A stretch of DNA of 64,000 nt from Zygnema cylindricum. Taxonomy: Eukaryota > Streptophyta > Zygnematophyceae > Zygnematales > Zygnemataceae. Below the pieces are notes generated by a model that did not search any database, was not told the origin of the DNA, and saw only the letters and a list, made by a program, of their open reading frames with translations. Shown piece after piece: positions 2,756 to 61,955 of this stretch (positions are counted from its first letter, which is position 1; every line of letters starts with the position of its first letter). Both the position numbers and the translations under genes were made by a program. The stretch spans positions 123,718 to 187,717 of the forward strand of contig JBBHKE010002910.1 in NCBI GenBank assembly GCA_037447655.1, written 5' to 3'.

Positions 2756-2757
2756 AT

Positions 2758-7425: not shown

Positions 7426-7487
7426 GATGTGTTTGAGAGGGGGCGACCAAAACTTGGATTATTTTGAAGAGTTTGGCGATTCCGACA

Positions 7488-7500
7488 ATAAGAGGGGGAT
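7488..7500 (+). other. Polypurine tract of element A
   Basis: A purine run (AATAAGAGGGGGA) ends directly before the TGTTGG start of the 3' LTR. This is the plus-strand priming site. Confidence 0.85.
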
Positions 7501-8075: not shown

Positions 8076-8120
8076 GTGTTTCCCTTGGATTTATTTAAGA
8101 GTATGAATGTGTCTTCCGTC

Positions 8121-12284: not shown

Positions 12285-12306
12285 GTACGTCCTGATTGTT
12301 AGAAAA

Positions 12307-16860: not shown

Positions 16861-16913
16861 CAGGTCTCTTAATCGACCACAGTTCGAATTACATCGAACT
16901 TCTGCTGGTCTTA

Positions 16914-21985: not shown

Positions 21986-22984
21986 TGCAATTCTGTGTCC
22001 TCCATTTGGACCAAGAATGAAGAAGCCTCTAGGTAGTTTTTGACTAACCCACTTTCAACGAAAGCAACTGCTATCCTAGCAGATAAATAGATAACTTGAC
22101 TGCATCCCTGTGCAGTCAGGACTCAGTTGAGTCCACAGCAAAAAGAATCACTGAAAATGCCTTACCAGGGGATTAATTATCAAGTGGCAAAATGCCAGTA
22201 TATATACAAGCTGGTTGGGAGAGAGGCGGTTACCTCCTCAATTCTCTAAGTTCTAAACCCCTCTCACAACCCCTATCTACTGATGTACGAAACAATCAGA
22301 AGACTCTTCAGTACAGACAAGTACTATGCCCGATGTACTTTCTGTACGGCTGGTGTACGACAAGGCCATGGAGGGGACGTCTGTCTCTTTTGGACTTGCC
22401 TTTATGCTCCCCGAGATTCCCGCTTCCCGATGATATCTTGCCACGTGTCGATAGGTCATGTTGCATCCGCGAACAGCCAAGACGGCCATACCGAGATTCT
22501 GGCGATGGTGTGGGCCGTTGGATCCTAAACCGGCTTTTAATGTTCGCCATCGAAAATAGCAAATGTCCGGTACATTTGTTTCGTGCGTACTAAAACCAAA
22601 CTAGTCTCTATGTCTCTAATTTAGTATTTCGTTAATCGGATTAATGCTATAGCTAATGTTTAAATCGCTATCGAACCCTATGTATCCTAACAGACTACTA
22701 CGACAGACTGGTAAGGTTTGACGGCTACGCCTCGCCCTACCGGTCGGAGGTTCCAATCCTGCCGGACTCAACCATTTTAGTTGAGAGTGACTTAGGTCAC
22801 TCTTAAGCCCTGCTTATGGAGCTAAGGCAGCCATGGCTCCACCGCCTTTCTCTTTCCTTCAGTGACTACAACAAGTATGGGGGTCAGAGAGAGAAGGTGG
22901 AGTCAAGCTGCCTCTGATTTTCTTTTCTTTCTTAGTTTAACTAAGAACTAGAAAATACCTCCCCTAAATCTAGTGATTTCAACA
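21986..22984 (-). repeat. 3' LTR of C1
   Basis: Read on the minus strand it starts TGTTGAAATCAC and ends GAATTGCA. It contains the tRNA-like module, a CACGTG box near 22443, the GTACAG palindrome at 22311-22348 and a TATATATA stretch. Confidence 0.92.
22700..22778 (+). other. tRNA-like module in C1 3' LTR
   Basis: A-box-like AGACTGGTAAGGTTTGA (22704-22720), B-box GGTTCCAATCC (22749-22759), then TTTT at 22775-22778. It is antisense to the element. Confidence 0.6.
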
Positions 22985-26270: not shown

Positions 26271-27266
26271 AATTCTGTGTCCTCTATTTGGACCAAGAAA
26301 GAGGAAGCCTCTAGGTATTTTTTGACTAACCCACTTTCAACGAAGGCAACAGCTATCTTAGAAGATAAATAGATAACTTGACTGCACCCCTGTGCAGTCT
26401 GGACCCCCTTGAGTCCACAGCAAAAAGAATCACTGAAAACGCCTTACCAGGCGATTAATTATCAAGTGGCAAAAATGCCAATATATATACAAGCTTGTTG
26501 GGAGAGAGACGGCTACCTCCTCAATTCTCTAAGTTCTAAACCCCTCTCACAACCCCTATCTACTGATGTACGAACCAATCAGAAGACTGTTCAGTACAGA
26601 CAAGTACTATGCCCGATGTACTTTCTGTACGGCTGGTGTACGAGAAGGCCATGGAGGGGACGTCTGTCTCCTTTGAACTTGCCCTTATGCTCCCCGGAAT
26701 TCCCGCTTCCCAATGATATCTTGCCCGTGTCGACAGGTCATGTTACATCCGCAAACCGCCAAGATGGCCATACCGAGATCCTGACGAAAATCCGGGCCGT
26801 TAGATCCTAAACCGACTTTTAATGTTCGCCGTCGAAAATAGCAAATGTCCGGTACATTTGTTTCGTGCGCACTAAAACCAAACTAGTCTCTATGTCTTAA
26901 ATTTGGTATTCCGTTAATCGGATTAATGTTATAGCTAATGTTTAAATAGCTATCAAACCCTACGTATCCTAACGGACTACTACGACAGACTGGTAAGGTT
27001 TGACAGCTACGCCCCGCCTTACTGATCGGAGGTTGGAGTCTTGCCGGACTCAACCTTTTTAGTTGACAGTGACTTAGGTTACTCTTAAGCCCTGCTTATG
27101 GAGCTAAGGTAGCCATGGCTCCACCGCCCTTCTCTTTCGTTCAGTGACTTCAACAAGAATGGGGGTCAGAGAGAGAAGGTGGAGGCAAGCTGCCTCTGCT
27201 TTTCTTTTCTTTCTTAGTTTAATTAAGACCTAGAAAATACCTCCCCTAAATCTAGTGATTTCAATA
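26268..27266 (-). repeat. 5' LTR of C1
   Basis: Closely similar to 21986-22984. The last bases that should read CAACA on the plus strand are CAATA, followed at once by D1 pol sequence. Confidence 0.9.
26983..27060 (+). other. tRNA-like module in C1 5' LTR
   Basis: A-box-like block at 26986-27005, a degraded B-box (GGTTGGAGTCT) near 27031, then TTTTT at 27056-27060. The B-box has decayed relative to the partner LTR. Confidence 0.5.
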
Positions 27267-29984: not shown

Positions 29985-31047
29985 TGTAGGAACTAATGGT
30001 ATTTTAAAGTATTTTCTAGGTCTGAATAGAAATATAGAAAGAAGTCGAGGTAGTCTACCTCTAACTTCTCTCTCGAACTCTCAAACTTGTCGCAATCACT
30101 GAGAAATTGGAGAGGAAGCTAGAGCCATAGCTACCTAGGCTATCCAGAGGTTTACGGGATATAAATATTAGTTATTTATAATTAAGGATATACTTACTAA
30201 AATATATATGCTACCTCCAAGATTTGAACCTACAACCTGCCGGCCGGAAATCAGCAGGTAGATGGTAGCTTTAAACCGTTTACTCTAGAGATAGTGTTAC
30301 GTACTATAGGGTTTGATAATTAATTAAACATTTATACGTAGGATAGTTCATTTAACTGAATAGTTTTACGGGGACATAGATCGAGTAATTTAAAAGTATG
30401 GATTACGGTACAGATAAGAAACGAATACCGCGCATTTATTTCTTTACCAAAACGAATACCGCGCATGTATTTATTACGGCTACGATTAAATGTGAATTGA
30501 ATCAGAGGGTCAGAATTAACGCCGAGATCGCGGAAGAGGATTTCAACGGTTTGTGGTCATCGCCACATCAGATGACACGTGGGGAAATTACATTGGATCG
30601 TGGTATCTCTGGTGATTACGGCACCGAATCCGGATATGACATGTGTCGACATTTAGGCCATGTCGTACAATGTCCGTACAGAAAGTATATTGGCAGTTGT
30701 ACTTTTGTTTACGTAGGAGTAATCTGATTGGTTCTGTAAATTAGTAGATAGAGTCTGTGAGAGAGATAGGACTTAGAAAAATTAGGAGATAGGACCCTCT
30801 CTCGTAGAGAAAAATATACAAAAGGTCAACTTTGACCCTCGATAACTTACTGCTCAGGGGAGCAAATTCACAGATTCTTTTTGCTATCAACTAAGGGGAG
30901 TCTTGCCTTCATAGAGGTGAAGTTGGTCGGAGTTTTTGTTTGCCAAGGTGGCAGTTGTTCTTGCTGAAACACAAAGGGGTCACGGTTATCCTAGAGGCTT
31001 CTTGGAAGCTGTCCACTTTGAGGACTTATGGAGGTCTCAGAGTTTCA
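29985..31047 (+). repeat. 3' LTR of D1
   Basis: Starts TGTAGGAAC and ends GAGTTTCA. It includes the gag start ATGGAGGTCTC near 31028, the GTACAG palindrome at about 30674-30713 and a paired GGTCAA/TTGACC motif near 30821. Confidence 0.92.
30199..30288 (-). other. tRNA-like module in D1 LTR
   Basis: On the minus strand: A-box-like block at 30264-30288, B-box GGTTCAAATC at 30221-30230, then TTTT at 30199-30202. Confidence 0.6.
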
Positions 31048-31073: not shown

Positions 31074-31707
31074 TGTTGAAATGTATGTATTTTTTACGTC
31101 TAAATAAAAGAAAATTAATAACAGAAAGTCAGCAAAGGCAGCCTGCCTCTCGCTCCACTCTCAAAACCACTACTTTTGTTGCACTCACTGAAGGCTGGAG
31201 AGACAGTTAGAGCCATGGCTACCCATGCTGCCCCAAGAGAGAGACAGGCTATAGTTTTTGGTAGTTGTACCACAAAGTTTTTGACAGACCCAGGGTTTGA
31301 TCCTAGTACATGCCGTACGTCAAGAATCTGGTAGCCGGTAGCTTTATCCTATAGTCTAAGATAAATGCTAGAGCATATAGGGTACGATAGTTATATAAAT
31401 GTGAATGACGCAATATATTTCATTTAACTGCTTACGGGACGGAATGAACACGGAAACAGGTTAAACCGCACGAATTCAAGACCGCACGGAATTAACGAAA
31501 CAACATTTTTTTTTACGACCAATATTAAATGTCGTTTTTCATCGAACGATCGTGGTGCAAGCATGGAATCTGGAGTGGACAACTTGGCGTTTTCGAGCAC
31601 CGCCACTTCGGATGACACGTGGCAAGATTCGAGAGGATTGTAGGATTTTTGGAACGCGAGATAAGATGTGATAAATGTCACATTGTGGTGATATCATACA
31701 TGGACTT
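31074..31707 (+). repeat. 5' LTR of E, left part
   Basis: Matches 43251-43890. It is interrupted at the GACTT target used by D2-D3. Confidence 0.88.
31277..31360 (-). other. tRNA-like module in E 5' LTR
   Basis: A-box-like block at 31337-31359 and B-box AGGATCAAACCC at 31292-31303 on the minus strand. Only three T follow, so the terminator is weak. Confidence 0.55.
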
Positions 31708-32762
31708 TGAAACTCTGAGACCTCCATAAGTCCTCAGAGTGGACAACTTCCAAGAAGCCTCTAGGATAACCGTGACCCCTTTGTGTTTCAGCAAAAATAA
31801 CTACCACCCTGGCAGACAAAAACTCTGATCAACTTCACCTTGTGAAGACAAGACTCCCTTGAGTCGATAGCAAAAAGAATCTATGAATTTGCTCCCCTGA
31901 GCAGTAAGTTATGGAGGGTCAAAGTTGACCTTTTGTACAAAAGCTCTCTGGGAGAGAGGGTCCTATCTTCTAATTTTTCTAAGTCCTATCTCTCTCACAG
32001 ACTCTATCTACTAATGTACGGAGCCAATCAGATTTCAGTTTCGTACACAAAAGTATAGCTACCGGTGTACTTTATGTACGGCCATTGTACAACATGGCCT
32101 AAATGTCGACACGTGGTATGTCCGGATTCGCTCCCTTAATCCTCGGAGATGCCGCGATCCAATGTCATTCCGCCACGTGTCATCCGATGTGGCGATGACC
32201 ACAAACCGCCGAAATCCTCTTCCGCGATTTCGGCGTTAATTCCGGCCGTCTGATTAAATTCACATTTAATCGTAGCCGTAATAAATACATGCGCGGTATT
32301 CGTTTCACTAAAGAATTAAATGCGCGGTATTGGTTTTGTATCCGTATTCGAATCCGTACTTTTACATTTACTGGATATATGTCTCCCGTAATCACTTATA
32401 GGTAAATGAACTTTTCTACGTATAAATGTTTAAATAATTATCAAACCTCATAATACCAAACACTACTTCTAGACTTAACGGCTAAGGCTACCGGCTACCG
32501 GCTGTCTGCCCATCGATAGGTATCAGGATCAAATCCTTTCGCCGGCACATATCTTTTAGTAAATTAAACCCCTAACTAAAATATTTTTTCCCGTAAACCT
32601 CTGAATAGCCTAGGTAGTCATGGCTCTAGCTCCCTCTCCAATTTCTCAGTGATTGCGACAAGTTTGAGAGTTGGAGAGAGAAGTTAGAGGTAGACTGCCT
32701 CGGCTTCTTTCTTATTTCTATTTAGACCTAGAAAATACTTTAAAAGACCATTAATTTCTACA
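31708..32762 (-). repeat. Left LTR of the D2-D3 array
   Basis: Minus-strand start TGTAGAAATTAATGG, end GAGTTTCA. Contains the palindrome at 32042-32081 and CACGTG boxes near 32109 and 32173. Confidence 0.92.
32470..32557 (+). other. tRNA-like module in D2 left LTR
   Basis: A-box-like TTAACGGCTAAGGCTACC, B-box AGGATCAAATCCT (a self-pairing stem) at 32525-32536, then TTTT at 32554-32557. One of the clearest copies. Confidence 0.65.
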
Positions 32763-35279: not shown

Positions 35280-36190
35280 TTAGGAATACGGAGACCAATC
35301 ATCAGTTATAGTCATCATAAATCTCTTCCCCCTCGGTGAGGGCACTTTAGCCGGTCCCCAAATATGTGTGTGTACTAGATCTATAATTTTTTCTCCCTTA
35401 TAGGTGGCTGATTTAGGAAAGGGTAATCTGTGTGCTTTACCTTGAGCACATCCACTACAATCACTTATATCATCACTCTCATTAAACTTAATCCCTTCTA
35501 CGACTCCCATCTTTTTCATCTCTCTTAACTTATCTAGATTAACATGCCCAAGCCTCTTATGCCACATCATAATATCATGAACACCAGCATAATAAAGTTT
35601 CTTCGTTTCATTACTTAAAATCAGCCTAAACATCCCATGGCTACCTTTCTCAGCAATGAAATAGACATCCTCCTCAAAACTAGCAGTAAAGACTCCTTCC
35701 CTAGTGCTAGTGAAAAAACCCTTATCATCTAATACAAATGTAGAGTTGAGGTTTTTGTTTAGCTCCGGAATAAACAATACATCGGAGAATGTTACTATGG
35801 ATGTCTTTCCTTCTACTAACACTTTCAGATCTACCGATCCTACAAGAGTAGTGGTGACTATCCTCTCATCCCCGAACTCTATCTCTACGGTGGGAATCTT
35901 TCTTATCTTAGTGAACAGGTGCCTATCCTTACACATGTGCATGGAGGCACCTGAATCTACAACCAGCCTGCTTCACCTTTCAATCCACCGTAAGCACATT
36001 TATGCCTTCGTGGTATTTCGACCTTGTTTTTCGCCTCCAACTCCTCATCTAAAAGGAGCTCATCGTCCTCATCCTCAGATTCCGCTTGAAGTACCTGTGT
36101 GACAAGGGCCTTTTTCTTTCCTCTCGGGGTACCACCGGTCTGCCCCTCCTTTAACCGAAGCTCGGTTAGCTTAGTGCACTCTTCCATATA
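35280..36190 (-). pseudogene. D2 protease, pre-integrase and integrase start
   Basis: The SGASMHMC-like protease block is frame-shifted at about 35950. The preintegrase block WHKRLGHVNLDKLREM and the CSGCAQGK knuckle follow. The integrase reads HTHIWGPAKVPS, so His replaces the first catalytic Asp found in C1 and D1. Confidence 0.88.
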
Positions 36191-37111
36191 GTGCCCGATT
36201 TCTTACAAAAATGACTTAAACCTTTGGGAGCCCTTGGTTTAAACTCGTCGGCCTGTTTTTTCTGCTCCCTACCCCCATAGTTTTCGACCGGTTTTCGAGA
36301 ATCCTTGTTCCTCCAATCAGTCGCTGTTGCCAAGGCTTGGCCACTCTTTCCTCCCCTTCGGATCTCAATTGTATTCTCTCGAACGAGAATCATCCCTACC
36401 AATGAGTTCCATATCCACCTTGAGTCCGGCAAGTCTTGCACACGGTTGACTATGTTCTCGAACTCATCAGGTAACTTCATCAGTAAACAGTTAACCTTTT
36501 CTTTTTCACTAAAATCTTTTCCGCACTCTCTAGCTCCATGAAGAGTGAAGCAAGCTCATTGCAAAAATCCAACATATTTCCCCCTTTGTAAACATACTCT
36601 TTAACTTTCTGATTAGCCAACTGTTGTTGCTGAATCGTACCACTTCGGTACATCTCTATGAGAGCCATCTAAAGATAAGATGCCCTTTCTACCTGCAAAT
36701 GAGGACATGCAAGTCCTTGAGTGAGATGGGTAGGATGAAATGCTTTGCCGCTATATTGTTGAAGTCCCAGGTTTCACTATCATTCTCCTCGTTCCTCGGA
36801 ATAGGTGACATGAATGCCGAACCAGTTGCTATTGGTGTGGTCGTCTCCTTCTCATTTCCTTTGTCCACCACCTCTCCTTCTTTTGTTTCCTCCGTTGAAG
36901 GTGGATCCTCTTTCCTAATGAATCTGCTTCCTCCAAACCTTGGAGGAATTCTAAGACTTGATGGACGCCCCAACCGTCCACTCACTATCCCCCAAAACCT
37001 TTTTTCGCATAGAGCTCCTATCATCATACTTTCCCAGTATATGAATCCAGTTCCATTAAAGATTGGTAACCTAGAAGGTGGGCCCCTAACCTGAAACTCT
37101 GAGACCTCCAT
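36191..37111 (-). pseudogene. D2 gag
   Basis: The ATG at 37111 lies inside the LTR; the frame reads MEVSEFQVRGPP through the primer site, then FNGTGFIYWESMMIGALCEKRFWGIVSG in the conserved N-terminal Gag region. Breaks occur near 36680 (TAA or TAG in frame) and 36200. The zinc knuckle keeps FCKK but lacks the first Cys. Confidence 0.85.
37077..37091 (-). other. Primer binding site of D2
   Basis: GGTTAGGGGCCCACC, one mismatch from the 15-nt complement of the plant tRNA-iMet anticodon arm. Confidence 0.8.
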
Positions 37112-38146
37112 AAGTCCTCAGAGTGGACAGCTTCCAAGAAGCCTCTAAGATAATCCTGACCCCTTTGTGTTTCAGCATGAATAATTTCCACCTTAGCACA
37201 CAAACATCTGACCACCTGCACCCTTGTGAAGGCAAGACTCCCCTGAGTCGATAGCAAAAAAAATCTCTAAATTTGCTCCCCTGAGCAGTAAGTTATGGAA
37301 GGTCAAAGTTGACCTTTTGTACAGAAGCTCTCTGGGAGAGAGGGTCCTATCTCCTAATTTGTCTAAGTCCTATCTCTCTCACAGACTCTATCTACTGATG
37401 TACGGAACAAATCAGAATACAGTTTCCTACGCAAAAGTACAGCTGCCGGTGTACTTTATGTACGGACAATGTACGACATGGCCTAAATGTCGACACATGT
37501 CATATCCGGATTCGGTGCTATAATCTCCGGAGATTCCACGAGCCAATGTAATTACGCCAGGCGTCATCCGATGTGGCGATGGCCACAAACCGCCGAAATC
37601 TTCTTCCGCGATCTCGGCGCTTATTCCGGCTGTCCGATTAGAATCGAATTTAATCGTAGCCGTAAGAAATACATGCGCGGTATTCGTTTCACTTAAGAAA
37701 TAAATGCGCGGTATTGATTTTTTGCTCGTACTGTATTCCGTACTTATACATTACCGGATCTATGTATACCGTAAACAATTATAGTTAAATGATTTATCCT
37801 ACGTTTGTGTGTTTAAATAAATATCAAACTTCATAGTACGTAATGTTATTCCTAGAGTTAACGGCTAAGGCTACCGACTACTTTCTGTCTACTGACCGGT
37901 AGATACAAGGATCAATTTCTGTCGCCGGCACATTCCTTTTAAATAAATAAACCCTAACAAATATAAATTTCCCGTAAACCTCTGGATAGCCTAGGTAGCC
38001 ATGGCTCTAGCTCCCTCTCCAATTTCTCAGTGACAGCGACAAGTTTGAGAGTTTGGAGATAGAAGTTAGAGGTAGACTACCTCGGCTTCTTTCTATATTT
38101 CTATTTAGACCTAGAAAATACTAAAAATGTACCATTAATTTCTACA
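37092..38146 (-). repeat. Middle LTR shared by D2 and D3
   Basis: Serves as the 5' LTR of D2 and the 3' LTR of D3. On its right it joins D3 pol directly at 38147 without a polypurine tract. Confidence 0.92.
37852..37940 (+). other. tRNA-like module in middle LTR
   Basis: A-box-like block at 37853-37875, B-box AGGATCAATTTC near 37908, then TTTT at 37937-37940. Confidence 0.58.
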
Positions 38147-38895
38147 GAGCACATCCACTACAATCACTTATATTATCATTCTCACTAAACTTAATCCCTT
38201 CCACCACTCCCATCTTTTTCATCTCTTTAACTTGTCTAGATTCACATGCCCAAGCCTCTTATGCCGCATCATAATATCATGAACACCAGCATAATAAAGT
38301 TTTTTCTTTTCATTACTTAAAACCATTCTAAACATCCCATGGTTACCTTTCTCAGCAATGAAATAGACATCCTCCTCAAAACTAGCAGTAAAGACTCCTT
38401 CCCTAGTGCTAGTAAAAAAACCCTTATCATCTAATACGGATGTAGAGATGAGGTTTTTGTTCAGCTCCGGAATAAACAATACATCGGAGAATGTTACTAT
38501 GGATGTCTTTCCTTCTACTAACACTTTCAAATCTACCGATCCTACAAGAGTAGTGGTGACTATCCTCCCATCCTTGTACTCTATCTCTACGGTGGGAATA
38601 TTTCTTATCTTAGTGAACAGGTGCCTATCCTTACACATGTGCATGGAGGCACCTGAATATACAATCCAGCCTGCTTCACCTTTCAATCCACCGTAAGCAC
38701 ATTTATGCCTTCGTGGTATTTCGACCTCGTTTTTCGCCTCCAACTCCTCATCTAAAAGGAGCTCCTCGTCCTCATCCTCGGATTCCGCCTCATGTACCTG
38801 TGTCACAAAGGCCTTTTTCTTTCCTCTCGGGGTACCACCGGTCTGCCCCTCTTTTAACCGAAGATCGGTTAGCTTAGTGCACTCTGCCATTTAGT
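38147..38895 (-). pseudogene. D3 protease and pre-integrase, truncated at the CSGCA knuckle
   Basis: 223 codons open (38890-38219) with the region before protease, a YSGASMHMC block (Tyr replaces the catalytic Asp) and the preintegrase domain. Sequence stops after the codons for CSGCA, where the LTR begins, so integrase, RT and RNase H are absent. Confidence 0.88.
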
Positions 38896-39800
38896 GCCCA
38901 GGTTTCTTACAAAAATGACATAACCTTTGGGAGCCCTTCGTCCGAACTCGTCGATCTGATTTTTCTGCTCCCTCCCCCCATAGTTTCCGACCAATTTCTA
39001 GGAATCCTTGTTCCTCCTATCGGTCGCAGTTGCCAAGGCTTGGCCACTCTTTCCTCCCCTTCGGATCTCAATCGTATTCTCCCGAACGAGAATCATCCCT
39101 ACCACTGAGTTCCATATCCACCTTGACATGGTTGACTATGTTCTCGAACTCATCGGGTAACTTCATCAGTAAACAGTTAACCTTTTCTTTTTCACTAAAA
39201 TCTTTTCCCGCACTCTCTAGCTCCATGAAGAGTGTAGCAAACTCATTGCAAAAATCCAACATCTTCCCCCCTTTGTATACATACTCCTTAACTTTCTGAT
39301 CAGCCAACTGTTGTTGCTGAATCGTACCACTTCGGTACATCTCTATGAGAGCCATCCAAAGATCAGATGCCCTTTCAACCTGCAAATAAGGACATGCAAA
39401 TCCTTGAGTGAGATGGCGTAGGATGAAATGCTTTGCCGCTATATTGTTGAAGTCCCAGGTTTCACTATCATTCTCATCGTTCCTCGGAATAGGTGACATG
39501 AATGACGAACCAATTGTTATTGGTGTGGTCGCCTCCTTCTCCTTTCCTTTGTCCACCACCTCTCCTTCTTTTGTTTCCTCCGTTGAAGGTGGATCCTCTT
39601 TTCTGGTGAATCTGCTTCCTCCAAACCCTGGAGGAATTCTAAGACTTGATGGACGCCCCAACCGTCCACTCACTATCCCCCAAAACCTTTTTTCGCATAG
39701 AGCTCCTATCATCATACTTTCCCAGTATATGAAGCCAATTCCATTAAAGATTGGTAACCTAGAGGGTGGGCCCATAACCTAAAACTGTGAGACCTCCATA
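38896..39800 (-). pseudogene. D3 gag
   Basis: The LTR-encoded start ATGGAGGTC is followed after six codons by TAG where D2 has Gln, so the upstream ATG is useless here. The frame 39775-39068 (FNGIGFIYWESMM onward) is otherwise open. A deletion of about 18 bp near 39126 removes the VQDLPDSR segment that D2 and H keep. Confidence 0.85.
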
Positions 39801-40836
39801 AGTCCTTAGAGTGGACAGCTTCCAAGAAGCCTCTAGGATAACCCTGACCCCTTTGTGTTTCAGCAAAAATAACTGCCACCCTGGCAGACAAAAACTCTGA
39901 CCAACTTCACCCCCTGTGAAGAGAAGACTCCCCTGAGTCGATAGCAAAAAGAATCTCTGAATTTGCTCCCTTGAGCAGTAAGTTATGGAGGGTCAAACTT
40001 GACCTTTTGTACAGAAGCTCTCTGGGAGAGAGGGTCCTATCTTCTAATTTTTCTAAGTCCTATCTCTCTCACAGACTCTATCACTGATGTACGGAGCCAA
40101 TCAGATTTTAAGTTTTGTACACAAAAGTACAGCTGCCGATGTACTTTATGTACGGCCATTGTACGACATGGCCTAAATGTTGACACGTGGTATGTCCGGA
40201 TTCGCTCCCTTAATCATCGGAGATGCCGCGATCCAATGTCATTCCGCCACGTGTCATCCGATGTGGCGATGACCACAAACTGCCGAAATCCTCTTCCGCG
40301 ATCTCGGCGTTAATTCCAGCCGTCCGATTAAATTCACATTTAATCGTAGCCGTAATAAATACATGCGCGGTATTCGTTTCACTAAAGAAATGAATGCGTG
40401 ATATTGGTTTTTTTTCCGTAACGGAATCCGTACTTTTACATTTATTGGATATATGTCTCCCGTAATCAGTTATAGTTAAATGAACTTTTCTACGTATAAA
40501 TGTTTAAATAATTATCAAACCCTATAATACGTAACACCACCTCTACACTTAACGGCTAAGGGTACCAGCTACCGGCTGTCTGCCGGTCGCTAGGTACTAG
40601 GATCAAATCCTATGGCCGGCACATATCTTTTAGTAAATTAAACCCCTAACTAAAATATATTTTCCCGTAAACCTCTGGATAGCCTAGGTAGCCATGGCTC
40701 TAGCTCCCTCTCCAATTTCTCATTGACTGCGACAAGTTTGAGAGTTGGAGAGAGAAGTTAGAGGTAGACTGCCTCGGCTTCTTTCTTATTTTTATTCAGA
40801 CCTAGAAAATACTTTAAAAGACCATTAATTTCCACA
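39780..40836 (-). repeat. Right LTR of the D2-D3 array
   Basis: 5' LTR of D3. The terminal dinucleotide has mutated (TG to TA at 39780-39781). GACTC follows as the target duplication. Confidence 0.9.
40544..40631 (+). other. tRNA-like module in right D3 LTR
   Basis: A-box-like TTAACGGCTAAGGGTACC, B-box AGGATCAAATCCT at 40599-40611, TTTT at 40628-40631. Confidence 0.65.
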
Positions 40837-41363
40837 GACTCTACAGAAAATATGACGATACCTGTACTTTCTTGTACGGTACAGTCTTACGATTGGATCG
40901 TACCCAAGTACTAGGGAGCTTAGAGAGGGGTTTTAGAACTTATAATTTTTTTTGGTAGGTAGTCGCGTCTCTCCTTGAAAGCATCTGTATAAATAGGCAA
41001 ACTTTGTAATATAATTACAACTCACTCGGTTGACCAAATTTAGTGATTTTTTTTGTTGCCTACTCAGAGGAGTCCTGACTACACAAAGGTGTAGTTGGTC
41101 AAAGTTTATGCCTGCTAGGGTGGGTGAATTTCTTAGGGAAATTCAAAGTGGGTGAATGTGTCCAAAACTCATATTCTAAATTTGCATTCTATGGTGGAAT
41201 TGAGCACACAAAAAGTCTTATTTCATAAGGGTGAAGTTGTATTGGGGTTTTCATTGTCAAGGGGTCAATGATTTGGGTTTGTATTAACTTGGAGTCGGCA
41301 CTTACTAGATAAACTTCTTGAGAGCAGCCTACACTGAGGACTTATGGAGGTCTCAGAGTTTCA
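40837..41363 (+). repeat. 5' LTR of E, right part
   Basis: Continues the E LTR after the D2-D3 insertion, with TATAAATAGG near 40990 and the gag ATG at 41344. It ends GAGTTTCA. Confidence 0.88.
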
Positions 41364-43237: not shown

Positions 43238-43447
43238 AAAATAAGGGGAGTGTTGAAATGTATGTATTTTCTAGGTTTGAATAAAAGAAAATTAATAAGA
43301 GGAAGTTAGCAAAGGCAGCCTGCCTCACGCTCCACTCTCCAAACCACCACACTTGTCGCAGTCACTGAAGGTTGGAGAGACAGTTAGAGCCATGGCTGCC
43401 CATGCTGCTTAGAGAGAGGGATAGGCTGTAGTTTGTGGTAGTTGTAC

Positions 43448-43537
43448 CAAAGAGGTCTTGACAGACCTAGGGTTTGATCCTGGTACCTGTCGTCCGTCAA
43501 ATATCTGGTACTCGGTAGCTTTATCCTATAGTCTAGG
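43448..43537 (-). other. tRNA-like module in E 3' LTR
   Basis: A-box-like TAGACTATAGGATAAAGCTA and B-box AGGATCAAACCC on the minus strand. Only a TTT run follows. Confidence 0.55.
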
Positions 43538-43890
43538 ATCAATGCTAGAGCATATAGGGTACGATAGTTATATAAACGTGAATGACACAATATATTTCAT
43601 TTAACTGTTTACGGGACGGAATATACACGGAAACGGGTTAAACCTCACAAATTTTGGACTGCACGGAATTCACGAAACGACATTTTATTTTACGGTCAAT
43701 ATTAAATGTTGTTCTTCATCGAACGGCCGTGGTGCGAGCCGGGATTCTGGAGTGGACAACTTGGCGTTTTCGGGCACCGCCACTCTGGATGACATGTGGC
43801 AGGATCCAGTAGGATTGCGCGATTTCCAGAACGCGAGATAATAATTCTAGATGTGACAAATATCACAATGTGGCGATATCGTACATGGAC

Positions 43891-45149: not shown

Positions 45150-46311
45150 TGAAATTCTATGGGCTCTATTGCCACACAGAATTCGCAGGTCCAAAAGAAG
45201 CTAATCTAGATAATGCAAACTCCAACTTGATATAAACCCAAATGACAGACCCCTTGACAATTAGAACCCCAATATAGCTTCACCCTTGTGAAATAACACT
45301 TTCTGTGTGCTCAGTTCCACCACAGAATGCAAAGTTAGAATATGAGATTTGGACACATTCACCCACTTTGACTTTCCCTAAGAAATGCAGCCACCTAGGC
45401 AGGCAAAGACTTTGACCGACTACACCCGTGTGTAGCTTAGACTCCCTTGAGTCCGCAGCAACAAGAATCACTGAATTTGGTCAACTTAATTGATTGTTAT
45501 GGCTGGCCAAAGTTTGCCATTTATACAAGGTGCTCTGTGGGAGAGTCAGCTACCTACCAGAAACATTCTAAGTTCTAGTCCCTCTCTAAACCCCTTCTAC
45601 TGATGTACGGCGCCAATCATAAGACTATACCGTACATAAAAGTACAGGCGCCGGAGTACCTTCTCTACGGCAACTGTACGGCAAGACCATACGAGTGACA
45701 AATGTCACATCCAAACTTGTTTCTTGCGCTCCGAAGATTCCACAATCCTCCAGCGCATTTCCACGTGTCATCCAGAGTGGCGGCATCAGATAACGCCAAG
45801 GCGGCCATTCTGGAATCTCGGCTACCACCACGGCCGTCGATTAAATCCGGTATTCATTCTTACCCGTCGAAAATATATGCGCGGTATTTGTTTCGTTGTC
45901 GAAACAAATGCGCGGTATTAGTTTCGCGTAGACCGTAATACTCTAAACTGTTTCTATGTACTAAAGATCTGTACGCGCCGTTAAATGAATTCGTCTACGC
46001 GTACATATTTATATAATTATCAAACCCTATATATCCTAGCACTAGTCCTAGACTAAACGGACAAAGCTAACGGCTACATTGACGGACGGCAAGTTACAGG
46101 ATCAATTCCTGGGTCCGTCAATACTTTTGGTAAACCCATCTATTTTCTGCTACCTGTCTGCTACAAAGCTTTAGACAGCCATGGCTCTATCACCCTACCC
46201 AGCCATCAGTGACTACAACAAGTGTGGGGGGTTGGAGAAGGGGGTCAAAGGCAGACTGCCTCTACTCTTTTTCTATCTAGTAAAGACCTAGAAAATACCC
46301 AAATATCAACA
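45150..46311 (-). repeat. Solo LTR G (family E type)
   Basis: Minus-strand start TGTTGATATTTGGG, end AGAATTTCA, with perfect GGGAG duplications at 45145-45149 and 46312-46316. No interior remains, the usual product of LTR-LTR recombination. It contains the palindrome at 45631-45670. The gag ATG is mutated to ATA. Confidence 0.92.
46048..46128 (+). other. tRNA-like module in solo LTR G
   Basis: A-box-like block (TAGACTAAACGGACAAAGC), B-box CAGGATCAATTCCTG (self-pairing stem) near 46097-46111, TTTT at 46125-46128. Confidence 0.65.
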
Positions 46312-48164: not shown

Positions 48165-48263
48165 ACACTATTGAGATTTGATGAGGAGGAAAGAGCATCC
48201 TACCTCTAGCTGTCGGAACGCACCGGTGGGGGAAGCAGTCGAGGAAGCCGTACGACAACTTCA
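48165..48263 (+). pseudogene. J gag, left piece
   Basis: Translates to a block matching C1 gag (NTIEI to KPYDNF), with two stops. It ends at CTTCA, repeated at 52430. Confidence 0.75.
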
Positions 48264-49411
48264 TGTTGATATTTGTGTATTTTCTAGGTCTGTAAATAGG
48301 ATAGAAAAAGGCAGAGGCATTCTACCTCTAACTCCCCTATCCAAGCCCCCACACTTGTTGTAGTCACTGAAGGCTGGATAGGGAGCTAGAGCCATGGCTG
48401 CCTAAGCTCTCTAGAGAAGACAGGGGGTAAATTAGGTAGACTTGCCAAAAGTTAGTTGACAGACCCAGGAATTGATCCTGGTACTTGCCGGCTGTCAATC
48501 AATCATAGCCGGTAGCTTTAACCGTTTAGTCTAGCGCTAATATTAAGACATATAAGGTTTGATAATAATTTAATTTGTTACACGTAGACTTTATCATTTA
48601 ACTGGAAATATATACGTAGTGCATAGATACAGTTATATATAGTACGAAGTACAATACGATTACGAAATAAATACCGCGGAAGTATTTATGATGGATACGA
48701 TTGAAATCCGGATTTGATCGGACGGCCGCGAAGGATGCCGAAATCGCGGAATAGGATTTTGGCGGTTTGCCATCACCGCCATATCGAATGACACGTGGCA
48801 AAACCACATTGGATTGCGGCAACTTCGAGGATTACGGAAACGAATCGCGATATGACATGTGTCGACATTTTGGCCATGTCGTACGATGGCCGCACAAACA
48901 GCACACTGGCACCTGTACTTTTTTGTACGACACAATATTTTAATTGGTGCCGTACTTCAGTAGATAGAGTTTTAGAGGGGGAATAGGACTTAGAAAATTT
49001 TGGGTAGGTAGCTGCCTCTCCCGGAGAGCACCTTGTATAAATGGCAAACTTTGGCCAGCTTTAACGATCAATTTACTAGACCATTTTCAGTGATTCTTTT
49101 TGCTGCACACTCAGGCGAGTCCAAGCTACACAGAGGTGTAGTCGGTCAGAGTTTTTGTCTGCCACGGTGGTGGTATTTCTAAGGGAAAGTCAAAGTGGGT
49201 GAATGTGTCCAAATCTCATATTCTAACTTTGCATTCTGTGGTGGAACTGAGCACACAAAAAGTCTTATTTCACAGGGGTGAAGCTATAATGGGTTTGTAA
49301 TTGTCAAGGGGTCAGTCATTTTGGTTTATATCAACTTGGAGTGGGCACTATCTAGATAAGCTTCTTTTGGATCTGCTTACTTTGAGGGCCAATGGAGGTC
49401 TCAAAGTTTCA
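48264..49411 (+). repeat. 5' LTR of E2
   Basis: TGTTGATATTTG to AAAGTTTCA. Contains TATAAATGG near 49035, a CACGTG box near 48791 and the gag ATG at 49392. Confidence 0.93.
48447..48535 (-). other. tRNA-like module in E2 5' LTR
   Basis: Best-folding copy. The T-arm-like hairpin CCAGG-7 nt-CCTGG lies at 48465-48481. A second stem (CCGGCT/AGCCGG) encloses 48488-48512. The A-box-like block is at 48511-48533 and TTTT (minus strand) at 48447-48450. Confidence 0.68.
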
Positions 49412-49426: not shown

Positions 49427-50165
49427 ATCTAAGGTGCCTATGTTTGACGGAACAGGCTTCACTTATTGGGAGTTTACAATGGAGGGATTGATTATGGAGA
49501 AACACTTATGGGGAATTGTTTCGGGACAAGTGAGATGTCTGCCACCTGGCTTTGGAGGAGCATACTATGGAGAATCATCTTGGGCTGCCCAAAATATGAA
49601 CCGGAGTTCAAATGCAACGGAAGGTGAAGGAAAAAACCTTTCCGTGGATGGGGAAATAAAGGAGAAGGAAAAATGGACACCTATGGTGAGGGGAGCTAGG
49701 CTCTCAGCTATGGTACCACTTGTAGGGATTAAAACTGAAGAAAATGAGAGAATAATATAGGAATACAAAAACACTATAGCAAAATATCTCATACTTAGAT
49801 ATGTGTCTAAGTCCATTGTTATCACTCTTTTAAGTCTAACGAAGTTTTCAGAGATATGGGAAGCACTAAGTCAGATTTATAAGAGTGAGACTATTCAGAG
49901 GCAGCAGTTAGTAAAACAGGAAATAGATGCATATGTTTATAAAGGCGATAGCATGATAGAGTTTTGCAATGATATTGTTGTACTATATGTTGGGCTTGCT
50001 AGTGCGGGATATATAGAATCTGAGGAGAGGAAGATTAATACACTGCTCATGAAACTCCCAGATGAGTACGACAACATCATTTGTTGTATGCAGACAATGG
50101 ATGGCTCCTCATGGACTTGGAACTTTACCATGGGGATAATTCTTGTGAGAGAAAGGTGGTGATTG

Positions 50166-50287
50166 GCGGAAGCGTGATGAGAGGAACGGCGGTGACGAGC
50201 GGAAGCGTGATGAGAGGAACGGTGGTGACGAGCGGAAGCGTGATGAGAGGAACAATGGTGACGAGCGGAAGCGTGATGAGAGGAAGA
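50166..50287 (+). repeat. 33-bp tandem repeat in E2 gag
   Basis: Units start at 50166, 50199, 50232 and 50265 (last one partial), each beginning GCGGAAGCGTGATGAGAGGA. In the gag frame each unit adds 11 residues (GGDERKRDERN type). Element E has only about one and a half units. Confidence 0.93.
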
Positions 50288-51283: not shown

Positions 51284-51466
51284 TGTTGATATTTGTGTAT
51301 TTTCTAGGTCTGTAAATAGGATAGAAAAAGGCAGAGGCAGTTTGCCTCTAAATCCCCTCTCCAAGCCCCCACACTTGTTGTAGTCACTGAAGGCTGGATA
51401 GGGAGCTAGAGCCATGGCTGCCTAAGCTCTCTAGAGAAGACAGGGGGTAAATTAGGTAGACTTACC

Positions 51467-51553
51467 AAAAGTTAGTTGACGGACCCAGGAATTGATCTTG
51501 GTACTTGCAGTCTGTCAATCAAACATAGATGGTAGCTTTAACTGTTTAGTCTA
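51467..51553 (-). other. tRNA-like module in E2 3' LTR
   Basis: A-box-like block at 51531-51553, B-box near 51488-51499, TTTT (minus strand) at 51467-51470. A few changes from the 5' copy weaken the T-arm-like stem. Confidence 0.6.
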
Positions 51554-51810
51554 GCGCTAGTATTAAGACATATAAGGTTTGATAATAATTTAATTTGTTA
51601 CACGTAGACTTTATCATTTAACTAGAAATATATACGTAGTGCATAGATACAGTTATATATAGTACGAACTACGATACGATTACGAATAAGTACCGCGTAA
51701 GTATTTATGACGGCTACGATTGAAATCCGGATTTGATCGGACGACCGCGAAGGATGCCGAGATCGCGGAATAGGATTTTGGCGGTTTGCGATCACCGCCA
51801 CATCGAATGA

Positions 51811-52429: not shown

Positions 52430-53115
52430 CTTCAAAAGAGAGAAAGATTAATTTGGAGGACCAAGGCCCCCAAAGTGTTTTGTCATTTATGCAAATAGTC
52501 GAGACACTTAATAGCCGATTGCACCAAGTTGTTGAAGCTAAGGCTTCAAGAGAACCGTGGAGGAGGCTTTTCTAGAGGAAAGAAGAAGGCACTTGTGGTC
52601 ACACAAGTGAAACGCGAAACCGAGGAGGACGGGGAGCTTCTTCTTAACGAGAATCTGGAGGAGAGGGAGATCCTTTGAAATAGAAGTGTGCTCTAGGAGC
52701 CATTCGAGAAGCTCCACATGAAGGATGGATCATTGATTCAGGTGCATCCATTCATATGTGTCGTGATAGGCACCTCTTTACCAAACTAAGAAAGATGCCT
52801 CTTGTAGATATAGAGTATGGGGATGGGAGAGTAGTTACTACAAATCTAGTAGGTTTGGTGGATCTGAAAGCCCTAGTGAAGGGTAAGACTTCTATACTCA
52901 CTTTCTTATATATAGTTTACATTCCTCTGCTGATTAAAAATCTTATCTTTACCTCTGTGTTAGATGATAAGGCGTTTGATACCTTCACAAGAAAGGGAGT
53001 CTTCACAGCTAAGTATGGGGATAAAGTCTACTTCACATCAGATAAGGGTATCAAAGGAATGTTTAGGCTTAACCTGAGTAATGAAAAGGATAATGCTTAG
53101 TATGTTTGTGTCCCA
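52430..53115 (+). pseudogene. J gag end, protease and pre-integrase
   Basis: A zinc-knuckle remnant (FCHLCK, TAG, SRHLIADC) lies near 52480. The protease motif WIIDSGASIHMC near 52727 keeps the catalytic Asp, unlike C1. The preintegrase part runs to a TAG near 53098. Confidence 0.85.
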
Positions 53116-54664: not shown

Positions 54665-55716
54665 TGTAGAAATTAATGGTTATTTATAGTATTTTCTAGA
54701 TCTAAAATGAAAGACCGAAAAGAAGCCGAGGCAGTCTGTTTTTAACTCCTCTCTTCAACTCCCACACTTGTTGCAATCACTGAAAGTTGAAGAGGAAGCT
54801 AGAGCCATGGCTGCCTATGCTGCTTAAAAGATAAAGAGACAGGTGGTAGATTTGGTAGATTCACCAAAATATACTTGACAAACACAGGATTTGATCCTGG
54901 TACCTGCCGTCCATCAAGTGTGAAATAGACGGTAGCTTTATCCTATAGTCTAATATCCTTGCTGAGACATATAGGGTTTGACAAATAGATAAACTATGAA
55001 GCGTGAACTAATTCATTTAACTGTAACTAAAGACATTGCGCATAGATACACGTTTGTAAAGTACGGAGTATGGTATGGTTCTGAAACAGATAGCGTGCAT
55101 TTTGTTTTGGTAGCAAAACAAATATCCCGCAACGATTTATGATGGCTGCGATTAAAACCAGTTTTCGATCGGACAGCTGCGAAGGATGCCGAGATCGCGG
55201 AATAGGATTTTGGCGGTTTTCGGTCACCACCACATTGATTGACACGTGGCACGACCACATTGGATTACACCATCTGCATGGATTATAGGAACGAATCAAG
55301 ATATGACATATATCAACTGGTTGGCCATGTCGTACAATGGCCGTACACAAAGTACACTGGCACAAGTACCTTTGTGTAAGACACAATATTTTGATTGGTG
55401 CTATACTTTAGTAGATAGAGTTTTAAAGAGAGATAGGACTTAGAAAAAATTGGTAGATAGGACCCTCTCTCCCAGAGAGCCTCTGTACAAAAGGTCAACT
55501 TTGACCCTCCATAAGTTATTGCTCAGGGGAGCAAATTCATAGATTCTTTTTGCTATCGACTCAGGGGAGTCTTGCTTTTATGGAGGTGGAGGTGGTTAGA
55601 GTTTTTGTCTGCTAGGGTGGCCGTTATTTTTGTTGGAACTCAAAGGGGTCAGGATTATCCTAGAGGCTTTGTGTGAGCTGCTTACTCTGAGGGCCAATAG
55701 AGGTCTCAAAATTGCA
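54665..55716 (+). repeat. 5' LTR of H
   Basis: TGTAGAAATTAATGG to AAAATTGCA. Has the palindrome at 55342-55379. The LTR-encoded gag ATG is mutated to ATA. Confidence 0.92.
54866..54953 (-). other. tRNA-like module in H LTR
   Basis: A-box-like TAGACTATAGGATAAAGCTA, B-box AGGATCAAATCC near 54887, TTTT (minus strand) at 54866-54869. Confidence 0.65.
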
Positions 55717-57450: not shown

Positions 57451-58440
57451 TTACCGATTCGATTTTGTTAGTTTGATAATAGTTCGAAATCGATACTGTT
57501 CGATTTAATCTATTTTAACAAACTCTCTTAGTTGTAGTTCAATTAGTCCCAATTAGTACTAATTTTCAAATCTTGTACAAAATATACTGTATATATGGTA
57601 TCATGAAGTAAAAAGGTATAGTACACCGTGAATCGCTATTAGGGTTAATGTCTTTTTCGTCTCTGAAAACATGATATCTCCGTACACACTTGTCATATTT
57701 TGGATCAGAGGCTTACAATAGAAAAGTAAGATTCTCAACTTTTGATTGGCGGTGTGGAATTGAAAATCAGACAGGTGTGTACGGAGTAAAGATGTTTTAA
57801 CTGGCGAAAAAGTGATTAAACGTAAGAGGAATATACGGTATATATACTGTATACACTGTTACACTGTTATTAGCGATAACTGGCCACCGTTATTAGCGTT
57901 AATAATAATGAACCATATTCCAGTTCAGTTGAGTTGCGTGAGCAGTTGAGTTGCATGAGGAGTTGTTACAATACTGTTTAAGCGAGTGGACTTAAACATG
58001 TCACGTCCCTTGGCACTAAATTAGTATTATATGTTTTTCTTTCAAACTAAAAACCGACTTTAAAATTTTAAACAAACCATTTGGTTTTTTCCAAACCTAA
58101 ACCTAAACCTAAACCGAACTAACCTCTCGCTATAAAAACTAAACAATTATGTGATTTTTTTATTTTTTTTTACCTTTTGCTATAAACCTTCGTCACCGCT
58201 CTTCATTTTCCGATATGAGTACACTGCAAAAAACTCATTATTGCTTTTTGTGAAAAGCCTGGGTATGTTTTACCCTTCCTGGCCACACTATTTAAGAATC
58301 GAATTCCTCATTTAATTTTTTTTTCTCATTTAAACACATTCTCAATTTTTGTTACAAAATAATTTTCGGTAGCTTTATAACCCTAAAATAAATCTCTAGT
58401 TCAGTGCCTAATAGTAAGTGTTGTTTTTCTTCGCCACCTA
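57451..58440. other. AT-rich intergenic DNA with a MITE-like copy
   Basis: No gene seen. Contains the palindromic element at 57622-57840 and a short (CCTAAA)n run at 58093-58124. Confidence 0.5.
57622..57840. mobile_element. Palindromic MITE-like element, copy 1
   Basis: Starts TACACCGTGAATCGCTATTA; inner arms CGTACACACTTGTC (about 57680) and GACAGGTGTGTACGG (about 57770) are inverted. Related to the copies at 61475 and 61736. The right end is degraded. Confidence 0.65.
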
Positions 58441-60533
58441 TATCTCTCCCTCTCCCCCCCACTCTCCCCCTTTCTCCCCTCTCCCCCCCTCTTTCCCCCT
58501 CTCTCCCTCTCATTCCCTATCTTCCCCCCTCACTCCCCCTCTTTTCCCCTTTCCCCCCCCTCTATCCCTCTCTCTCCCCCTCTCTCCCCCTCTCTCCTCT
58601 CTCCCCTCTCTCCCTCTCTCCCTTTCTCTCCCTCTCTCTCCCCCTCTCCCCATTCTCCCCCTCTCTCCCCTTCTCTCCCTCTCTCTCCCCCTCTTTCCCC
58701 CTCAACCCCCCTTACTCCCCCTCTCTTTCCCTTTCCCCCGCTCTCTCCCTCTCTCTCTCCCTCTCTCCCCCTCTCTCCTCCTCTCTCCCCTCTCCCCCTC
58801 TCTCCCCTTCTCTCCCTCTCTCTCCCCCTCTCCCCCCTCTCCCCCTCTCTCCTCTCCTCTCCCTCTCTCTCCCCCTCTTTCCGCCTCTACCCCCCTCACT
58901 CCCCCTCTCTTCCCCTTTCCCCCCTCTCCCCCTCTCTCTCCCCCTCTCTCCCCCTATCTCCTCCTCTCTCCCCTCTCCCTCACTCTCCCCATCTCTCCCT
59001 CTCTCTTCCCCTCTCCCCCCTCTCCCCCTCTCTCCCCTTCTCTCCCTCTCTCTCCCCCACTCTCCCCCTCTCTCCCCTTTCCACCTCTCCCTCCCACTCT
59101 CTCCCTCTCTCTTCCCCTCTCTCCCCCTCTCTCCCTCTCTTTCCCCCTCTCTCACTCACTTTCCCCCTCTCTTCCCCCTCTCTGCTCCTCTCTCCCTCTC
59201 TCTCCCTCTCTCTCCTTCTCTTTCCCCCTCTCTCACTCTCTCTCCCCCTCTCTCCCCCTCACCCCCCCTCACTCCCCCTCTCTTCCCCTTCCCCCCCTCC
59301 CTCCCTCTCTCTCACTCTCTTTCCCCCTCTCACCCCTCTCCCCCCCTCTCCCCTCTCTTTCCCCCTCTTTCCCCCTCTCTCCCGCTCTCTCCCCCTCACT
59401 CCCCCCTCTCTCCCCCTCTCCCCCCTCTCCCCCCCTCTCCCCTTCTCTCCCTCTCTCTCCCCCTCTCTCCCTCTCTCTCCATCTCTCTCCCCTCTCTCCC
59501 TCTCTCTCCCCCTCTCTCCCCTTCTCTCCCCCTCACCCCCTTTCACTCCCCCTCTCTTCCCCTTCCCCTCCCTCCCCCCCTCTCTCCCCCTCTCTCCCCC
59601 TCACTCCCCCTCTCTCCCCCTCACCCCCCCTCACTCCCCCTCTCTTCCCTTTTCGCCCTCTTCCTCCCTCTCTCTCCCTCTCTCTCCCCCTCTCTCCCTC
59701 TATCTCCTCTCTCTCCATCTCTCCCTCTCTCTCCCCCTCTCTCCCTTTCTCCCCCTTCCTCCCTCTATCTCCTTCTCTCTCCCCCTCTCTCCCTCTCTCT
59801 CCTTCTCTCTCCCCCTCTCTCCCTCTCTCCCCCCCTCTCTCCCCCTCTCTCCCCCCTCACCCCCCCTCACTCCCCCTCTCTTCCCCTTTCCCCCTCTTCC
59901 TCCCTATCTCTCTCACTCTTTTCCTTAGTCTCCCCCACTCCCACCCTCTTTCCCCCTCTCCCCATTCCCCCCCTCTCTCCCCTTCTCTTCCTCTCTCTCC
60001 CCCCCTCTCCCTTTCTCTCCCCTTCTCTCCCCCTTTCTCCCCCTCACCCCCCCTCACTCCCCCTCTCTTCCCCTCTCTCCTCTCTCCTTCTCTCTCCGCC
60101 TCTCTTACCCTCTCCCCCCCTCTCTCCCTCTCTCTCCCCCTCTCTCCCTTCCTCCCCCCCTCTTTCCCCCTCACCCCTCTTCACACTTATCTTCCCCTTT
60201 CCCCCCCTCCCTCCCTCTTCCGCCCTCTCTCTCCCCCTCTCTCCCCCTCTTTCCCCCTCTCTCCACCTCTCCCCCCCTCTCTCCCACTCTCCCCCCCTCT
60301 CCCCCTCTCTCCCCTTCTCTCCCTCTTTCTTCCCCTCTCTCCCCCTCTCTCCCCCTCTCTCCTCACCGCCCCTCACTCCCCCTTCCCCCCCTCCCTCCCT
60401 CTTTCTCCCTCTTTCTTCCTCTTTCTCCCTCTCTCTCTCTTCTCTCCCTCTTTCTCCCTCTTTCTCCCTCTCTCTCTCTTCTCTCCCTCTCTCTCTCTTC
60501 TCTCCCATCATGTTTCTCTTCTTCTTATATCAT
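58441..60533. repeat. CT-rich satellite (2.1 kb) with irregular higher-order units
   Basis: Almost only C and T, built from CTCTCTCCCC-type blocks. A marker, CTCACTCCCCCTCTCTTCC with variants, recurs near 58711, 58895, 59269, 59542, 59630, 59867, 60053, 60181 and 60372. Several spacings are near 184-187 bp or a multiple. Open frames over 700 codons on the plus strand and Arg/Glu/Gly frames on the minus strand are by-products of the missing A and G; they are not genes. Confidence 0.93.
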
Positions 60534-61474: not shown

Positions 61475-61690
61475 TACATCGCTAATCGTTATTAGTGTTT
61501 AAGTTTTTTTTCGCCACTTAAAACATCTTTTCTTTGTGCACACTTGTCGGATTGTAAGTCAAATACCTCCAATAGGAAGGTGAGAATCCTGCCTTCCCGT
61601 AGCAACCATCAAATTGACAATTCGATAAGTGTGCATAAAGAAAAGACATTCGCATGGCGAAAAAAAACACTCATCACAATTAAAGGTGTA
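61475..61690. mobile_element. Palindromic MITE-like element, copy 2
   Basis: Starts TACATCGCTAATC and ends AAAGGTGTA; arms such as TTCGCCACTT and GCACACTTGTCGG are matched inversely by AAGTGTGC and GGCGAAAA on the right. No coding capacity. Confidence 0.75.
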
Positions 61691-61735
61691 GCTTTAGCGC
61701 TTTCTTGTTACCAAGTTGCTTTGACAGTAGGCTGG

Positions 61736-61955
61736 TACACCGGATATCGCTATTAGTGTTAATGTTTTTTCTGCCACTTACAACATCTTTTCTCTGTGTA
61801 CACTTGTTGGATTTCACATGGAGACCACCAATTAGAAGGTGAAAATCTTGGATTTCAATCGCGACCGTCCGATCCATAATCCGACAAGTGTGTACTTAGA
61901 AAACATGTTGTAAGTGGCGAATAAAACATTAACACTAATAGCAATACATGGTGTA
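61736..61955. mobile_element. Palindromic MITE-like element, copy 3 (best preserved)
   Basis: Terminal inverted repeats TACACCGGATATCGCTATTA and its near complement ending GCAATACATGGTGTA, extending about 75 bp inward (GCCACTTACAACAT against ATGTTGTAAGTGGC). Total 220 bp, about 45 bp after copy 2. Confidence 0.82.

Follow-up and report, generated by a model that had tools for sequence, protein, structure and literature searches.

Introduction

Two kinds of small retrotransposon are the nearest published relatives of the system described here, a putative RNA polymerase III (Pol III) module, tRNA-like and antisense, in the long terminal repeats (LTRs) of Ty1/copia elements, which occupy, in clusters, a 64-kb stretch of the Zygnema cylindricum genome (contig JBBHKE010002910.1 of assembly GCA_037447655.1, positions 123,718 to 187,717; hereafter the window). 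Cassandra is a terminal-repeat retrotransposon in miniature (TRIM) with Pol III promoter sequence in its LTRs (PMC7215508). Helenus (TRIMp3; Kojima 2024, PMC10886601) is 311–1263 bp long with LTRs of up to 323 bp, encodes no proteins, and has a tRNA-like part that is taken to drive the element; its fungal and plant members have 5-bp target site duplications (TSDs), and in most fungal members the primer binding site (PBS) corresponds to a tRNA's anticodon-loop region, usually that of the initiator methionine tRNA (iMet). Autonomous partners of Helenus are expected to use RNA polymerase II (Pol II) and to have LTRs with little sequence in common with it. The same paper remarks, before TRIMs are selected, on finding similarity to part of a tRNA in "not a few" Repbase LTRs, from which it follows that there may be longer, unlisted elements with such an LTR part; the words "antisense" and "opposite" are absent from it. 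In a different setting, an antisense Pol III MIR in Polr3e lowers the expression of the Pol II unit that encloses it (PMC5358760).

In the window, every LTR stretch that retains the 5' part of the LTR carries the module, always antisense to the element. As in Helenus, tRNA-derived A and B boxes lie within the LTRs of an LTR element, the TSD is 5 bp, and the PBS appears to be of the iMet type, on the iMet sequence that we assumed. In contrast to Helenus, which is short and protein-less, the families here code for gag-pol domains and have LTRs of ~1.0–1.17 kb. All 12 LTRs hold the unit in antisense, whereas our own reading of PMC10886601 is that it lies in sense in Helenus. We do not file these families as Helenus because they share the tRNA-like boxes but are neither short and non-autonomous nor, as far as we can judge, driven by the boxes. 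Cassandra, as described in PMC7215508, likewise has Pol III gene-derived sequence in every LTR, but that sequence derives from 5S rRNA and the element encodes no proteins, whereas here it is tRNA-like, antisense, and found in gag-pol families. A preliminary description of this stretch, made from the sequence alone, had named only Cassandra as a parallel; the comparison is sound, but Helenus is equally near. Like the putative unit here, the Pol III MIR of Polr3e lies in antisense inside a Pol II unit and has an interference model attached; it differs in being a single short interspersed element (SINE) in a host-gene intron rather than part of a mobile LTR (PMC5358760). In the open-licence literature we found no published gag-pol Copia element whose LTRs hold such a tRNA-like Pol III unit in antisense.

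Results

The module and its promoter boxes

When the LTRs were compared to the window with BLAST, 14 LTR-homologous stretches of at least 150 bp were found (13 rows, one joining two LTRs). Twelve of them retain the LTR 5' part, and all 12 contain the module, the other two being 3' fragments that start at LTR position 629 or 496. With the exception of the truncated LTR X, the LTRs are 999–1165 bp long as cut, and the B box of the module lies 215–246 bp from the LTR start as cut, antisense in 12/12 (Table 1). The preliminary description had claimed a tRNA-like unit in twelve LTRs, antisense and at a fixed place, with a terminator-like T run in ten, and each of these points is borne out, its module starts falling 3–10 bases from our own (arbitrary) edges and TTTT or longer following the module, by eye, in 10/12. 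Its use of the fixed place and orientation as independent evidence does not hold, since both follow from the common descent of the whole LTR. As the LTRs are homologous, one ancestral capture explains all module copies.

Scored against the B-box consensus GGWTCRANNCC, seven module B boxes are exact, four have one mismatch and one, in the C1 5' LTR, has two. The module B box is the unique best antisense B box in 10 of the 12 LTRs, with ties elsewhere in E3 (one) and in the C1 5' LTR (three). All seven exact B boxes in the 64 kb lie within modules; by comparison, 60 shuffles of the 35.5-kb Copia region gave a mean of 1.0 and a maximum of 4. Sites that combine an A box (up to 2 mismatches), a B box (up to 1) and TTTT number nine in the Copia region, where shuffling gave 1.8 on average and at most 5; seven of the nine are modules, whose copies are related by descent and do not make independent counts. 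Two other Copia elements lie in the window, at 2096-8076 and 12306-17323; in their four LTRs, even the best B box on either strand has at least two mismatches. A covariance model built from nine modules recovers those nine and the held-out D1 module (60.6 bits), misses both C1 copies, and finds nothing outside the LTRs in the whole window.

Conservation and promoter context

Between lineages, identity in 40-column windows is 0.57–0.65 over the module and the AT-rich block upstream of it and falls to 0.36–0.47 immediately outside the module on both sides; the LTR 3' end aligns poorly. A conserved peak at 48552-48562 overlaps the upstream AT-rich block of element E. The expectation that the boxes would be better conserved than the surrounding unique 3' region (U3) of the LTR stands for the B box, which ranks 59th of 949 windows, and less so for the A box, which ranks 154th of 948. 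The strongest sign of selection, on our reading of the alignment, is how the B box varies. Five B boxes were compared at family level (H, E, G/X, D2/D3b and C, with the C-family box taken as the majority of 12 rows); C reads GGTTCGAGTCC, and the other families read GGATCAAATCC, GGATCAATTCC or GGATCAAACCC. They vary at four positions, precisely those that are degenerate in the consensus, which would arise by chance in 1 of 330 cases. This grouping was made after the fact and excludes the singletons D1 and D3, each of which has one change at a fixed position.

The AT fraction 31–40 nt before the A box is 0.89–0.97 in seven modules, compared to 0.94–0.95 at 31–40 nt before T8 in 28 upstream regions of this genome's tRNA genes (locus L197 was dropped from the promoter comparison, and L173 from the AT profile because of N). 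After 29 tRNA genes, the first TTTT is 1–262 nt away and is within 21 nt in only 11 of 29; as such, a nearby T run is no strict mark of a tRNA gene here. On the sense strand, we take the motif at 49036-49042 to be a TATA-like box and ACACGTGG to be a G-box-like motif.

Copies elsewhere in the genome

The 352.8-Mb assembly of the same genome was searched with the E, H and C modules as queries, which gave 1922, 2106 and 2055 first-look candidates, respectively; 40 were scored per query, and 40/40 matched. With duplicates removed (E from 15 to 13, H from 29 to 27), the distinct copies have a B box with at most one mismatch in 12/13 E, 24/27 H and 10/10 C, an A box with at most two mismatches (a one-base-shorter form allowed) in 13/13, 24/27 and 10/10, and TTTT within 30 nt in 12/13, 26/27 and 10/10. 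These rates are biased upwards because the copies were found by module similarity. Three more modules (L170:187-287, L171:130-223 and L220:3009-3095) came to light incidentally in flanking sequence. In 30 H loci compared by eye over ~110 bases of preceding and 75 of following sequence, LTR sequence continues on both sides in 26 and breaks on one side in four; no stand-alone module was seen among these 30, most candidates being unscored. Three 9.9-kb stretches taken regardless of the module contained no LTR of this lineage. The H-type modules at L212:1500-1599 and L231:1500-1599 have an upstream LTR flank unlike that of the other H loci, which suggests recombination between LTR families near the module.

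Predicted RNA structure

ARAGORN returned no tRNA match in the whole window. At the E module (a 141-base stretch), the Rfam tRNA model RF00005 aligned over its full length at 12.9 bits (E-value 3.6) against a cut-off of 29, with the D arm mostly missing, and at the D1 module it gave no match. On these results we rejected a functional or charged tRNA, which the preliminary description had also thought unlikely. No Rfam family reaches its cut-off anywhere in the window, so no 5S rRNA-like sequence is recognised in the LTRs.

With nine modules (without D1 and C1), RNAalifold predicted 7 pairs of a stem that we read as up to 9 bp. Its 3' strand adjoins the T-arm strand, an 8-nt linker replaces the D and anticodon arms, and the stem is located 3' of the A box; in element E, 8 of its 9 pairs are standard by eye. 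The preliminary description had seen no acceptor stem, but an acceptor-like stem is present in most families. In the nine sequences, which leave out D1 and both C1 modules, 83.3% of the stem cells pair, against a shuffled mean of 76.6 (2/500 as high) and 27–44% with slid partners, and there are 8 double-change cells against a shuffled mean of 4.4 (17/500 as high); pairs with a double change number 4 against 3.5 in shuffles. In 53 model-aligned sequences, without the C copies, which fail to match the covariance model, 85.4% of cells pair and the covariation score was reached by 0/500 shuffles. On the antisense strand, G-U cells outnumber A-C cells by 56 to 40, which is not significant (P ~0.06 with no correction for relatedness). 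Compensatory change in the stems, a check named in the preliminary description, thus appears as a modest excess on nine of 12 modules, but the stem is not recovered when all 12 are folded. Judged from these alignments, the compensatory evidence for the stem is modest, and the promoter boxes appear to be better kept than the RNA fold. A D-arm-like hairpin around the A box, also visible by eye in G and E2, was rejected, since its cells are Watson-Crick in 142/162 cases in H copies but in only 14/42 in E copies.

The elements that carry the module

By coding domains, TG...CA LTRs, PBS, polypurine tract (PPT) and a 5-bp TSD, the elements are Ty1/copia LTR retrotransposons. Pfam domains between the C1 LTRs, in a span of ~5.3 kb that includes the pol domains, are RVT_2 (2.4e-53), Pol_BBD and gag_pre-integrs; beside the D2 LTR they are RVT_2 (1.5e-74), SH3, Pol_BBD and gag_pre-integrs, with an integrase core under its cut-off, and beside D1 the integrase core exceeds its cut-off. 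The PPT-like tract AAAATAAGGGGAG precedes five 3' LTR starts, and the PBS, GGTTATGGGCCCACC or a near variant, follows five LTR ends; a scan for a sense-PBS-like pattern gave no match. The PBS appears to fit the anticodon-loop-region/5'-half type of iMet, on what we take to be the iMet sequence (the host iMet gene was not found). This iMet-like PBS and the G-box-like motif of the LTR point tentatively to a host of the plant lineage. TSDs were checked on E and C1, and the C1 flanks do not match. Element E is itself probably not autonomous, because its interior is only 1.9 kb and the single open reading frame (ORF) scanned there, of 215 aa, has no Pfam match. A protein search with the 668-aa reverse transcriptase ORF gave at least 120 matches, 35–45% identical among those listed, and one with a 190-aa ORF gave none. 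A search of viral contigs for related loci found no relative; a 17-base LTR pattern occurs in 45 stretches of viral contigs and at least 119 of genome contigs, which we judged to be chance from the contig names.

Table 1. Features of element E and positions of the module in the window
Feature	Position	Strand	Remark
5' LTR of element E (TG...CA)	48264..49411	+	LTR ends
TSD of element E, CTTCA, 5 bp	48259-48263 and 52430-52434		both flanks
Reference module in element E 5' LTR, from A-box block to T run	48443..48542	-	antisense to element
A-box-like block TAGACTAAACGG	48522..48533	-	
B box GGATCAATTCC, within T-arm-like hairpin	48468..48478	-	exact match
T-arm-like hairpin CCAGG/CCTGG	48465..48481	-	
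Acceptor-like stem, adjoins T arm	48456..48498	-	5' strand 48490-48498, 3' strand 48456-48464
T run TTTT, putative Pol III terminator	48447..48450	-	
AT-rich block, 25-44 nt upstream of A box	48558..48577	-	overlaps AT-block position of this genome's tRNA genes
Sense G-box-like motif ACACGTGG	48791..48798	+	among most conserved LTR windows
Sense TATA-like box of element E LTR	49036..49042	+	~500 bp from module
Module, C1 3' LTR	22691..22784	+	
Module, C1 5' LTR	26973..27066	+	B box with 2 mismatches
Module, D1 LTR	30195..30296	-	
Module, truncated LTR X	31268..31367	-	without TTTT
Module, D2 LTR	32461..32561	+	
Module, D3 LTR	37844..37944	+	
Module, D3b LTR	40535..40635	+	
Module, G LTR	43445..43544	-	without TTTT
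Module, E2 LTR	46040..46132	+	
Module, 3' LTR of element E	51463..51562	-	
Module, H LTR	54862..54961	-	

Other features of the LTRs and the window

Close to its 5' end, in a highly conserved part, the LTR has a long hairpin (48311-48405, with homologous sites in the other 11 LTRs). Its 21 predicted pairs include 3 with double changes, it has several sense-strand G-U pairs and a conserved loop, and it is possibly a genomic-RNA element. On the minus strand, D2, D3 and D3b (31708-40838) lie in an apparent LTR-gag-LTR-gag/pol-LTR order, an array that is either nested or recombined. A 33-bp tandem repeat of 4.3 copies lies inside element E at 50146-50285. A pyrimidine-rich 2-kb array of TCTCCCCCTC-like units at 58443-60506 has a strong skew and two frames open for more than 700 codons. 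A ~220-bp repeat at 57615-57851, 61484-61669 and 61735-61957, found also in the tRNA loci L182, L196 and L197, looks like a small interspersed element, and a long inverted repeat at 1095-1271, matched on both strands by the MIR5380 family below its cut-off, is probably similar to a miniature inverted-repeat transposable element.

Discussion

We favour, with a probability of roughly 0.55, the reading that the module is a tRNA-derived Pol III unit, antisense to the element, which would have been kept by selection and would act mainly in cis on Pol II transcription from the LTR. A Copia-lineage ancestor would have captured a tRNA-derived Pol III promoter in antisense within U3, its source probably being a SINE of the tRNA type or part of a tRNA gene. 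The LTR families here would have inherited the unit, and selection, on sequence-level evidence, would have kept the AT-rich upstream block, the A box, the B box and the T run. TFIIIC and TFIIIB would bind the module, and Pol III would make an RNA of ~100 nt directed to the outer LTR end. The module may act mainly in cis, as a boundary that separates the Pol II promoter from the flanking chromatin and as a brake by way of transcriptional interference, with the RNA itself secondary. Because it lies ~500 bp upstream of the sense TATA-like box, transcription of the module in a 5' LTR would head away from the Pol II promoter, and in a 3' LTR it would oppose the sense transcript. MIR elements are themselves tRNA-derived. 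It is this geometry, together with the reported effect of the antisense Pol III MIR on its Pol II unit (PMC5358760), that leads us to favour a cis role. The fuller proposal, that a gag-pol LTR lineage carries an antisense Pol III gene of its own, kept across diverged families, which controls Pol II in cis and yields a structured antisense U3 RNA, is tentative, and we place it somewhat below even odds.

A number of observations weigh against a selected, tRNA-derived Pol III unit. With regard to the boxes, one-mismatch B boxes show no excess in the whole window (44 against 47.3 expected), the composite of A box, B box and TTTT is passed by just 7 of the 12 modules, the A box is imperfect with A at its fourth position, and the X and G modules have TTT rather than TTTT. 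The AT fraction at 21–25 nt is 0.43 in the modules against 0.79 in the tRNA genes, so the profiles differ. Most of the remaining LTR, at 0.48–0.77 identity, is about equal to the module, and eight other 11-bp peaks outrank the B-box peak, the upstream AT-rich block among them. With regard to structure, an Rfam search of the whole window does not list the tRNA family at E-values up to 10, and RNAalifold on all 12 modules gives a six-pair hairpin only and does not recover the acceptor-like stem. In single folds, some of whose windows cut through that stem, it is recognisable by eye in 3/12, with z-scores from +0.37 to -3.33. The 19 double-change cells in the 53 sequences are within the slid-control range of 6–24, and the C family folds differently, with its B box inside a long hairpin.

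Some of these observations fit a neutral passenger, i.e., a tRNA-type SINE that was inserted once in an ancestral LTR and has merely been inherited, untranscribed and without function. A single event would be enough as all the LTRs are homologous, several genome copies have decayed, and conservation is similar across the whole LTR. We nevertheless consider a passenger unlikely, given that B-box changes among the five family-level sequences are confined to degenerate positions, that conservation falls on either side of the module, and that T runs are kept in 26/27 H and 10/10 C copies, which were selected by module. An antisense RNA acting in trans is less likely again. Antisense RNA has been proposed to limit copy number in Ty1, and here the Pol III transcript would pair with the U3 of the genomic RNA, or act with Gag, to the same end. 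The predicted transcript would be complementary to genomic RNA at its 3' U3, 9/12 modules have in common a stem-loop that shows some compensatory change, and antisense-strand G-U cells exceed A-C cells; this excess, however, falls short of significance in related sequences, the C family lacks the structure, and folding all 12 modules does not recover it.

Watson-Crick covariation leaves the strand unfixed, and the neighbouring LTR hairpin has pair changes and sense-strand G-U pairs, both of which would suit a signal on the sense strand, either a hairpin of the genomic RNA or a site for a Pol II factor, whose likeness to a Pol III unit is due to chance. That reading is improbable: it is on the antisense strand that both boxes, the AT block and the T run stand in the correct order, and the best sense B box has 1–2 mismatches in the 12 LTRs. 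We consider it very improbable that the unit is an integration beacon that draws the integrase of the element itself, in the way described for Pol III genes with Ty1 and Ty3. The LTRs in the window are clustered as a beacon would have them, but an LTR of this lineage was found in only 2 of 30 tRNA loci (~3 kb each, some overlapping), a count with no background rate; the two are an LTR 5'-end fragment (L173:1814-1939) ~240 bp from a tRNA-Phe gene and L197. Capture of the primer tRNA would explain the antisense orientation, and was rejected on two grounds: the 5'-half region of iMet that we take to fit the PBS has no T arm, and the Copia element at 12306-17323 has a similar PBS yet no good B box.

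If a cis-acting Pol III unit is the correct reading, it departs from published Pol III promoters in LTRs, which belong to small, protein-less elements and are thought to drive the element. A backward unit in gag-pol families, ~500 bp upstream of a TATA-like box, would separate the Pol III promoter from genomic-RNA production. With ~2000 first-look (unscored) candidates per query in one genome, such units could confuse the annotation of tRNAs, SINEs and small RNAs. They would also provide a direct route to ask whether mobile elements use the Pol III machinery as a self-insulator or self-brake.
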